A stretch of DNA of 45,967 bases from Cyclobacteriaceae bacterium (GTDB lineage: Bacteria; Bacteroidota; Bacteroidia; Cytophagales; Cyclobacteriaceae), in assembly GCA_947457095.1 (NCBI GenBank), contig CANGUK010000006.1:1-45967 (forward strand), written 5' to 3'. Shown piece after piece: positions 27,041-28,940 of this stretch. Below the pieces are notes generated by a model that saw only the letters and a list, made by a program, of their open reading frames with translations, had not been told where the DNA came from and did not search any database. A program made the position numbers and the translations under genes. Positions within the stretch are counted from its first letter, which is position 1. Every line of letters starts with the position of its first letter.

Positions 27041-28078
27041 ATGAGCGAACAGCACCTGGAAGAAGACTTTGAAGAAGATGAGTTAGCCTTGTATGAGCAC
27101 CATCGAATCGTGGTGGACAAGGGGCAATCTCCCGTTCGGATTGATAAGTTTTTAACGGAACGGATTGCAAATTCCACGCGCAACAAGGTGCAGCAAACCA
27201 TCGACTCTGGAGGAGTACAGGTCAATGGCCATTCCGTCAAGTCCAATTACCGGATCAAGGGATTAGATGATATTCGGGTGCTTCTGGAGAAGCCTCCCCG
27301 TGATACAGAAGTGATTTCGGAAAATATTCCCCTAGATATTGTCTATGAGGATGCGGATTTATTGGTGGTCAATAAGCCTCCTGGCATGGTGGTTCACCCG
27401 GCCCATGGCAATTGGTCCGGCACTTTGGTGAATGGATTGGTGTACCATTTTGAAAATTTGCCTGAGATGAAAGGAAATGTGGGAAGGCCTGGCCTTGTAC
27501 ACCGAATCGATAAAGATACTTCCGGTCTTCTGGTGATTGCCAAGACGGAAGAAACGATGGCGCCTTTGGCCGCTCAATTTTTTCATCATACCATTCAGCG
27601 CACGTACCTAGCCTTAGTTTGGGGAGAGCCAGAGGCGGATGAAGGTACTATTGTAGGCAATGTGGGGCGTAGTGCCAAAGATCGCAAGGTAATGGATGTT
27701 TTTCCGGATGGAAGTCAAGGCAAGCATGCAGTCACGCATTGGAAAGTATTGAAACGCCTGCGCTATGTGTCACTCGTTCAGTGCACCTTGGAAACGGGCA
27801 GAACACACCAAATCCGAGCACATTTTAAATTTTTGGGACATCCCTTATTCAATGATGCGATGTATGGTGGAGATAAGATTCGAAAAGGGACTCAATTTGC
27901 CAAGTACAAAAGTTTTATCAGCAATTGCTTTGATGCAATGCCACGACAGGCACTACATGCGCAGAGTTTGGGGTTTGTTCACCCTATCACGAAGGCAAAC
28001 CTCTATTTTGAAGCTCCTATTCCAACCGATTTTGCTACAGTGTTGGAGAAATGGGAGCAGTATGTGCAGTTAGATTGA
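27041..28078 (+). CDS. rluD: RluD-family 23S rRNA pseudouridine synthase
   Basis: The 345-residue enzyme has an S4 domain (about 32-90, RIDKFLTERIANSTRNKVQ) and an RluA/C/D catalytic domain. The catalytic Asp is D157 in HRIDKDTSGLLV. Other family blocks are VVNKPPGMVVHP, TGRTHQIRAH and GHPLFNDAMYGG. RluD makes the pseudouridines of 23S rRNA helix 69 (1911, 1915, 1917). RluD is favoured over RluA/RluC because of the S4 domain, the acidic N-terminal extension and the full length, but Bacteroidota carry several related paralogues. No GC-rich terminator follows; the AT-rich tRNA-like RNA region begins after it. Confidence 0.88.
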   Translation: MSEQHLEEDFEEDELALYEHHRIVVDKGQSPVRIDKFLTERIANSTRNKVQQTIDSGGVQVNGHSVKSNYRIKGLDDIRVLLEKPPRDTEVISENIPLDIVYEDADLLVVNKPPGMVVHPAHGNWSGTLVNGLVYHFENLPEMKGNVGRPGLVHRIDKDTSGLLVIAKTEETMAPLAAQFFHHTIQRTYLALVWGEPEADEGTIVGNVGRSAKDRKVMDVFPDGSQGKHAVTHWKVLKRLRYVSLVQCTLETGRTHQIRAHFKFLGHPLFNDAMYGGDKIRKGTQFAKYKSFISNCFDAMPRQALHAQSLGFVHPITKANLYFEAPIPTDFATVLEKWEQYVQLD

Positions 28079-28286
28079 CTTTATTTTTTTGATAAAAAGA
28101 GAAAAAGAAGGGTTCAAAAACTTGCTTATTTAACAATCAGACGGATTTTTTATGCCAATTCCTCAATTTTAATTGTTCAAACAAGTTGATAATTGACAAA
28201 TTGGTATATTTCAATCGATTTCCTTAAAAATAATGTAAATTTTTGGAATAATTGTTGAAATTTATGTAATACACGTGCCCATTCTG
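28079..28286. other. AT-rich spacer after rluD, no gene seen
   Basis: About 200 bp of A/T-rich DNA between rluD and the first tRNA-like RNA promoter. It contains small imperfect inverted repeats (CAATTTTAATTG, TTGATAATTGACAA) but no ORF with coding character and no clear terminator for rluD. Confidence 0.5.
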
Positions 28287-28294
28287 TATCTTTG
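28287..28294 (+). promoter_or_regulatory. promoter of tRNA-like RNA 1, -7 element TATCTTTG
   Basis: An exact TAnnTTTG match, the same octamer as at aspS. A loose -33-like TTTATG lies 20 bp upstream (28261-28266). Transcription would begin about 28300, some 25 nt before the tRNA-like fold. Confidence 0.6.
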
Positions 28295-28325: not shown

Positions 28326-28430
28326 TGTAAGAAAAAAATTTGGTGTTTTTTGCCAAATTTCAGGGAAAGAAAACAAAAGCAGTGATTATCTGTTAGTTAT
28401 CTTGAAGGTTCGATTCCTTCTCTTACAACA
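28326..28430 (+). ncRNA. tRNA-like RNA 1 with a non-canonical interior
   Basis: The ends are tRNA-like. The acceptor stem TGTAAGA (28326-28332) pairs perfectly with TCTTACA (28421-28427). Directly before the latter is a T arm GAAGG-TTCGATT-CCTTC (28404-28420) with a canonical T-loop. The interior is abnormal. In place of a D arm there is an 8-bp hairpin AAATTTGG/CCAAATTT (28336-28360) with a 9-nt loop, then a purine-rich linker. An anticodon-arm-like 5-bp stem with 7-nt loop (AGCAG-TGATTAT-CTGTT, 28378-28394) follows, then a 9-nt variable region. The loop has G rather than U at position 33, so ordinary decoding is unlikely. It has its own promoter and terminator. Alternatives are a decayed tRNA gene or a Y-RNA-like molecule. 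The fold is seen directly; the function is unknown. Confidence 0.6.
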
Positions 28431-28460
28431 GGTTATTTTGGGTTTATTGTTAATTGACTA

Positions 28461-28490
28461 AAACCATGAAAATTATTTCATGGTTTTTTT
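28461..28490 (+). terminator. terminator of tRNA-like RNA 1
   Basis: A perfect 11-bp stem AAACCATGAAA/TTTCATGGTTT with a 4-nt loop ATTA and a following T-run, 30 bp after the tRNA-like fold. Confidence 0.85.
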
Positions 28491-28685: not shown

Positions 28686-28693
28686 TACATTTG
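28663..28693 (+). promoter_or_regulatory. promoter of tRNA-like RNA 2, -7 element TACATTTG
   Basis: TACATTTG (28686-28693) fits TAnnTTTG exactly. A TTTT at 28663-28666 lies 19 bp upstream at the -33 position, within a very AT-rich stretch. Transcription would begin about 28700. The roughly 50-nt leader contains a GAAGC/GCTTC hairpin (28722-28742). Confidence 0.6.
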
Positions 28694-28750: not shown

Positions 28751-28888
28751 TGTAGGGTGTTGAAATTGGCAGACAAGCCCTCCTGTCTCGGGGGTGGGGA
28801 TCCTGGTCATTAGATCGGAACGGGATAAAGCGTGTTTCAAAAGTTCATGCCTAACTGCCGCGTGGAGGTTCGAATCCTTCCCCTACAG
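28751..28888 (+). ncRNA. tRNA-like RNA 2 with a 69-nt variable region
   Basis: The acceptor stem TGTAGGG (28751-28757) pairs perfectly with CCCTACA (28881-28887). The T arm is GGAGG-TTCGAAT-CCTTC (28864-28880). The 5' half resembles tRNA-Leu: TG at positions 8-9, D stem TTG/CAA, D loop AAATTGGCAGA, G26 and a 5-bp anticodon stem CCCTC/GGGGG. The anticodon loop is CTGTCTC: U33 and a nominal GUC, but a pyrimidine at position 37 and Leu-type architecture, so decoding is doubtful. Between anticodon arm and T arm lie 69 nt instead of 4-20, with a hairpin ATCCT/GGGAT (28800-28826, with an inner GGTC-ATTA-GATC stem), a second hairpin GCGTG/CATGC (28830-28850), and CTGCC (28855-28859), which could pair with GGCAG of the D loop. 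No CCA is encoded. It is not an ordinary tRNA; its function is unknown. Confidence 0.65.
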
Positions 28889-28892
28889 CAAC

Positions 28893-28920
28893 AAAAAAGC
28901 AGCCATTTGGCTGCTTTTTT
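28893..28920 (+). terminator. terminator of tRNA-like RNA 2
   Basis: AAAAAGCAGCC and GGCTGCTTTTTT form a perfect hairpin with loop ATTT and a T-run, starting 5 bp after the tRNA-like fold. Confidence 0.95.
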
Positions 28921-28940
28921 CGTATACGGGATTTAGTAGG

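Follow-up and report, generated by a model that had tools for sequence, protein, structure and literature searches.

Introduction

Transfer of an amino acid outside translation is carried out by the staphylococcal non-proteinogenic tRNA-Gly, which have ordinary tRNA size and serve cell-wall bridges. RNAs of the 3'ETS-leuZ type come from a conserved piece 3' of a tRNA-Leu-type gene. In tmRNA, a tRNA's acceptor and T arm are combined with a tag reading frame and pseudoknots.

In bacteria, the Asp identity elements are G73, G10, G34, U35, C36 and C38, with G2-C71 as a minor one (PMC9976931). GatCAB recognises U1-A72, and in bacteria that keep it beside AsnRS and GlnRS its proposed use is to make Asn on tRNA-Asn (PMC4206432). 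GlnRS is reported to be present in nearly all Bacteroidetes surveyed (PMC3927822). The E. coli AsnC activates asnA except when Asn is present (PMC4482635).

The window studied here is the whole stretch of 45,967 nucleotides, which belongs to a 2.47-Mb draft genome of a Cyclobacteriaceae bacterium. Our analysis showed that its first tRNA-like RNA, RNA1, arose by remodelling of a tandem copy within an RNA family conserved in Bacteroidia, and that an ordinary member of the family, RNA2, lies about 320 nt downstream.

Two tRNA-like RNA genes in the window

The features of both genes are listed in Table 1. A preliminary description had placed RNA1 at 28326-28430; the 5' end stood, but the discriminator base is A28428. 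The intact 7-bp acceptor stem and canonical T arm that it had claimed were both found, with all seven pairs formed and the T arm in every member of the clade. The minimum free energy of RNA1 was −26.5 kcal/mol, where dinucleotide shuffles gave −16.4 ± 3.0 (z −3.3; 1/200), and the hairpin in the place of the D arm had 10 bp in this structure. RNA1 scored 34.9 bits against R1, a covariance model of the family built from 25 sequences. RNA2 has U1-A72, G2-C71, G73, the loop CTGTCTC and a long branched variable domain. ARAGORN reported no tRNA in the window, and no Rfam 15 family exceeded its gathering threshold there.

Table 1. Features of the RNA1 and RNA2 genes and of their upstream neighbour in the window.
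Feature	Position	Strand	Basis
rluD (23S pseudouridine synthase), upstream neighbour	27041-28078	+	orthologues in 59/59 relatives
RNA1 promoter, TTGAAATTTATGTAA (−33 region) and TATCTTTG (−7 box)	28255-28294	+	conserved spacing
RNA1 TAnnTTTG promoter box	28287-28294	+	read from sequence
RNA1, diverged tRNA-like RNA	28326-28428	+	fold, clade conservation, family covariance model match
RNA1 acceptor stem TGTAAGA/TCTTACA, 7/7 paired	28326-28332/28421-28427	+	read from sequence
RNA1 hairpin replacing the D arm, AAATTTGG/CCAAATTT	28336-28360	+	compensatory changes, 8 clade genomes
RNA1 5/7 stem-loop AGCAG-TGATTAT-CTGTT, G where U33 belongs	28378-28394	+	read from sequence
RNA1 T arm GAAGG-TTCGATT-CCTTC	28404-28420	+	arm present in all clade members
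RNA1 discriminator base A	28428	+	read from sequence
RNA1 31-nt trailer GGTTATTTTGGGTTTATTGTTAATTGACTAA	28431-28461	+	near-invariant in Cyclobacteriaceae
RNA1 intrinsic terminator hairpin AAAACCATGAAA..TTTCATGGTTTTTTT	28460-28490	+	stem covaries between genera
RNA2 −7 promoter box TACATTTG	28686-28693	+	similar box precedes the RNA in other families
RNA2, intact family member	28751-28889	+	R1 114.7 bits, E 8.4e-29
RNA2 anticodon-like arm CCCTC-CTGTCTC-GGGGG; GUC at 34-36, U37	28778-28794	+	read from sequence
RNA2 T arm	28864-28880	+	structure alignment
RNA2 terminator AAGCAGCCATTTGGCTGCTTTTTT	28894-28921	+	read from sequence

The RNA family in Bacteroidia

Members of the family scored above about 65 bits with R1, against a tRNA-Leu background of about 50-60 bits, and occur in many Bacteroidia families. 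A blastn search with one copy as query gave matches in 282 of 391 genomes of the order, though the weakest matches may come from tRNA-Leu; multi-copy arrays reached 10 matches per genome. In the alignment A2 (87 distinct rows, RNA1 included), which was fitted to the structure, 97.9% of the cells were paired and 22 of 26 pairs had changes on both sides. The both-side cells numbered 248; shuffles gave 67.6 and slid controls no more than 50. The unfitted alignment A1 had 44 both-side cells against 12.9 in shuffles.

The family has a class-II tRNA fold with an enlarged variable domain and is derived from tRNA-Leu, as seen from its Leu-type D arm and from the false hits of the covariance model, those read being mostly tRNA-Leu(gag). 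Weak hits in genomes that lack the RNA were considered as short forms of it, and this was rejected, those read being ordinary tRNAs, again mostly tRNA-Leu(gag). Two other proposals were also rejected. Anti-Shine-Dalgarno mimicry by CCUCCUNUCU does not fit an anticodon-like stem that covaries away from it (CCCGC/GCGGG, CCAGC/GCTGG, CCACC/GGTGG), and pairing of a D-loop AGAC with the loop GUCU does not fit the change of AGAC to AGCC, which lacks a matching change.

Typical members were not reported by Rfam 15, RF00005 or ARAGORN. RF00005 reported neither the two RNAs of the window genome nor the copies in two others (G033, G021), and Rfam 15 gave only sub-threshold matches to unrelated families at six member loci. 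One minimal member of 77 nt was called tRNA-Asp(atc) by ARAGORN; such a member (L129/L325, genome G048) has no variable domain and the loop CTATCTC, in a genome with asnA. No earlier description of the family was found in the literature, and a search for phage carriage gave no match. The family appears to be new to the literature and is absent from Rfam 15.

At four loci (L049, L051, L032, L047) a palindromic repeat similar to ATCCCGATAGCTATCGGGAT interrupts the variable domain or replaces the D and anticodon arms of some copies. Many Cyclobacteriaceae members have the palindrome GAGCTC as apical loop of the variable-domain hairpin, and other families have TGGGTTGACCAC; this loop is a possible dimerisation or binding site.

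Identity elements for AspRS and GatCAB

U1-A72, G2-C71, G73 and C74 were invariant in all 63 non-redundant members, and U1-A72 was present in every one of the 87 rows of A2, including RNA1. In the loop, U35 and C36 were each found in 62 members, C38 in 60 and G34 in 55, the other eight lacking G34. Positions used in decoding were not kept: U33 was present in 49/63 and a purine at 37 in 7/63. Among the own tRNAs of a complete relative, U1-A72 occurs only in those for Asn and Gln, and G73 combined with U35, C36 and C38 only in that for Asp. RNA2 has all five AspRS marks (G73, G34, U35, C36, C38). RNA1 lacks this set, having A73 and no GUC loop, and retains U1-A72. Judged from these positions, the family looks like an Asp acceptor with an amidation signal and with its decoding positions freed. 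The helper elements G10 and G1-C72 are absent (pair 10-25 is mostly A-U or U-A and pair 1-72 is U-A), which would be a mark against AspRS as the charging enzyme. The members with C34 (L061, L065, L068, L134) cluster in family f13, and asnA was present in both f13 genomes tested.

A different charging state was considered, in which the family would be a class-II tRNA-like RNA, serine-charged or uncharged, that acts as regulatory RNA or decoy under AsnC control. The class-II shape, G73 and G2-C71 also suit SerRS (PMC9976931), and linkage to AsnC does not require Asp charging. However, SerRS ignores the anticodon, so that serine charging would not account for conserved U35, C36 and C38 or for the invariant U1-A72, and an association with GatB (see below) would not be expected. 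We regard this explanation as unlikely.

AsnC-type neighbour and phyletic distribution

Beyond the family of the window genome, the RNA gene frequently lies divergent from one that encodes an AsnC-type regulator of the Lrp group. Such a gene was present at 49 of 119 named loci (Chitinophaga, Dyadobacter, Emticicia, Parachryseolinea, Saprospiraceae and others), divergent in all 49; at 34 loci from many families its start lay 113-266 nt upstream of the nearest RNA. Its closest NCBIfam model is AsnC, at 174-188 bits, which is under the equivalog cut-off. In the genus of the window, the AsnC-type orthologue is encoded elsewhere in the genome. What we take to be a SufB-like gene adjoins the AsnC-type gene at six loci (L066, L067, L069-L072).

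For the phyletic test, 80 genomes (48 RNA-positive and 32 RNA-negative) were chosen from earlier search results ahead of any protein search, their RNA state being known at that point. AsnRS was found in all 80. GatB, by which alone the presence of GatCAB was scored, was found in 47 of 48 RNA-positive genomes, that of the window included, and in 19 of 32 RNA-negative ones (Fisher p 1e-5 with genomes as units, and 0.013 when grouped by family and RNA state). The genome-level p values are inflated by shared ancestry, and the phyletic results are associations. The exception (G131), an RNA-positive genome with no GatB match, is a fragmented assembly. One genome each of families f61 and f56 lacked both the RNA and GatB. 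TIGR01536 could not be used as an AsnB test, as it matches EPS-type paralogues in nearly all genomes, and orthologues were searched instead (>950 bits). These were found in 0/48 RNA-positive and 7/32 RNA-negative genomes, and all seven were GatB-negative. The EPS-type AsnB paralogues (about 590-670 aa), which may be active, do occur in RNA-positive genomes, and this is a point against the carrier role proposed below.

AsnA was found in 3 of 76 genomes: two from f13, with C34 or A34 in their RNA loops, and one from f61 that lacks the RNA. The presence of AsnA beside the RNA in two genomes is a point against an asparagine-supplying role, and in both the loops are altered. Nineteen RNA-negative genomes had GatB but no AsnB orthologue, and AsnA was also absent where searched. 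This indicates that the RNA is not the sole solution and that GatCAB can be retained in its absence; a non-discriminating AspRS acting on tRNA-Asn would suffice.

These data also bear on the proposal that the Asp- or Asn-charged RNA is a sensor or competitor, which titrates AspRS or GatCAB or reports Asn supply, thereby tuning Asn metabolism with no biosynthetic carriage. Its identity marks would be identical to those of a carrier, and both the AsnC neighbour and the multi-copy arrays agree with it. Taken alone, it does not account for AsnB orthologues missing in every RNA-positive genome, and we consider it improbable.

Remodelling of RNA1

The preliminary description had proposed that conservation and covariation be sought downstream of rluD, and both were found in eight close relatives. 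Genus loci that extend far enough downstream of rluD hold two tRNA-like RNAs, or three in one genome. In most genomes of Algoriphagus, to which the named members among these loci belong, both positions are occupied by ordinary family members (class-II-like, with Leu-type D arm and CTGTCTC). The altered copy 1 is confined to the small-genome clade of the window, and in a second pair of genomes (L013, L015) copy 1 has yet another interior. RNA1 is therefore a derived paralogue of the family to which RNA2 belongs.

The acceptor stem, D-side hairpin, middle hairpin and T arm were retained in the eight clade genomes (z −1.3 to −3.5). Pair 7 of the acceptor stem is A-U or G-C among them. The hairpin that was said to replace the D arm is present and has compensatory changes, its variants, changed on both sides, being AAATTTGG/CCAAATTT, AAATTGAG/CTCAATTT and AATTGAC/GTCAATT. 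The 5/7 stem-loop with G33 does exist in the window, but the middle hairpin differs from genome to genome and the stem and loop sequence is unique to this one; because sister genomes fold another middle hairpin, G33 carries no weight.

A decaying pseudogene of a tandem copy would explain why the interior is replaced, why the identity bases are gone and why the change is seen in one small-genome clade only. However, the eight genomes retain the trailer and, with compensatory changes, the D-side hairpin, acceptor stem and T arm, and we think decay quite improbable. The view that RNA1 is not mere decay was thus borne out, with fold, ends, promoter and terminator all maintained in close relatives. 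A Y-RNA-like (YrlA) tRNA mimic, also suggested earlier on account of tRNA-like ends on a non-tRNA body, is very improbable, as no TROVE/Ro60 gene occurs in any of 25 genomes of the genus and RNA1 clearly descends from the tRNA-Leu-like family.

Promoter, trailer and terminator of RNA1

The promoter and terminator claimed for RNA1 were both located (Table 1) and are maintained in close relatives. The spacing of the promoter elements, 32-34 nt, is constant through the genus and in other families. We considered TTGAAnnATTTGCAA as independent evidence of an AsnC operator and rejected it, as part of it coincides with the −33 box, whose spacing is fixed; because this region holds the Bacteroidota −33/−7 promoter, it gives no independent evidence for such an operator. 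A boxA-like GTTCTTT, as in stable RNA operons, was seen in the 5' leader of the RNA at three loci (L113, L123, L133).

The most conserved segment of the RNA1 gene is the trailer, which lies outside the drawn RNA. It was exact in 87 of 94 occurrences in Cyclobacteriaceae (91 loci, partly overlapping), and its only antisense match within the window was its own complement. RNA1 thus has a conserved 3' trailer ending in a terminator, as expected for a trailer sRNA. In Cyclobacteriaceae loci the trailer stands 3' of the last or the first RNA copy. Other families, for example Marinoscillum, have related yet different U-rich trailers (GGGTTAATGTTGTTTATT) 3' of the RNA.

Proposed role

Because the intact copies are unfit for decoding yet have the marks for Asp loading and conversion to Asn, they may be a dedicated asparagine-making carrier. 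RNA2-like copies would most likely be aspartylated by AspRS through G73, G2-C71, G34-U35-C36 and C38, and the Asp could be amidated to Asn by GatCAB through U1-A72. The lost U33 and purine-37, with the bulky variable domain, would exclude these copies from decoding, so that they would carry Asp to Asn outside translation. Under AsnC control, the RNA would supply or report asparagine in bacteria without AsnA and AsnB. Asp charging, Asn amidation and the asparagine-supply role each have, in our estimate, an even chance or slightly less. A point against the carrier is that the scheme has no step for release of Asn from the RNA.

The earlier suggestion of a charged RNA suits the family well, but the charging marks have been lost from RNA1. 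From its bases, RNA1 is best seen as a reused copy, whose AspRS elements are gone and whose U1-A72 is kept. The acceptor/T-arm minihelix is the part needed by RNase P and 3'-end nucleases and may be kept as a processing signal. Since both this minihelix and the 31-nt trailer are kept, the likeliest selected product is a processed RNA. We suggest, with less confidence than for the family, that this product could be a trailer sRNA, a tRNA-like RNA that has lost amino-acid carrying, or both, and that the trailer may be at least part of it.

The whole explanation, an Asp/Asn-carrier family under AsnC with RNA1 as a remodelled copy now giving a processed RNA, seems to us evenly balanced. Somewhat under an even chance is the proposal that Bacteroidia without asparagine synthetases keep an Asp-charged, GatCAB-amidated and AsnC-switched RNA cofactor that does not decode, from which RNA1 was released and reused. 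By analogy, the AsnC-type/RNA pairing of Bacteroidia would then stand where E. coli has its asnC-asnA pair. If true, a separate non-decoding carrier would explain GatCAB beside AsnRS and GlnRS in much of Bacteroidia, and it would be an RNA cofactor that works in metabolism and not in translation. The family is in addition a source of many natural tRNA variants with charging and decoding elements uncoupled, and it accounts for tRNA-like loci missed by annotation tools.

Comparison with known systems

The amino-acid transfer proposed here shares its place outside translation with the staphylococcal tRNA-Gly. RNA1 resembles RNAs of the 3'ETS-leuZ type in its conserved 3' piece, but the module upstream of its trailer is not a functional tRNA. 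It has the acceptor and T arm of tmRNA and, with 103 nt, is too short for the tag reading frame and pseudoknots. With bacterial Y RNA (YrlA) it has a tRNA-mimicking part in common, but its ancestry differs and the genus lacks the Ro60 partner.

The family shares with tRNA-Leu (GAG) of the same bacteria the D arm (GAAACTGGTAGAC vs GAAAYTGGCAGAC), the class-II layout and the T arm. It differs in having G73 rather than A73, U1-A72 rather than G1-C72, the loop CTGTCTC with U37, and a variable domain that is about 50-75 nt long and contains the conserved internal loop GGATAAA/CTAAC. Unlike tRNA-Asp and tRNA-Asn, it has no conserved U33 or purine-37 and no G1-C72 or G10, is class II and is often linked to a regulator; like these substrates of AspRS and GatCAB, it has G73, G34, U35, C36, C38, G2-C71 and U1-A72.
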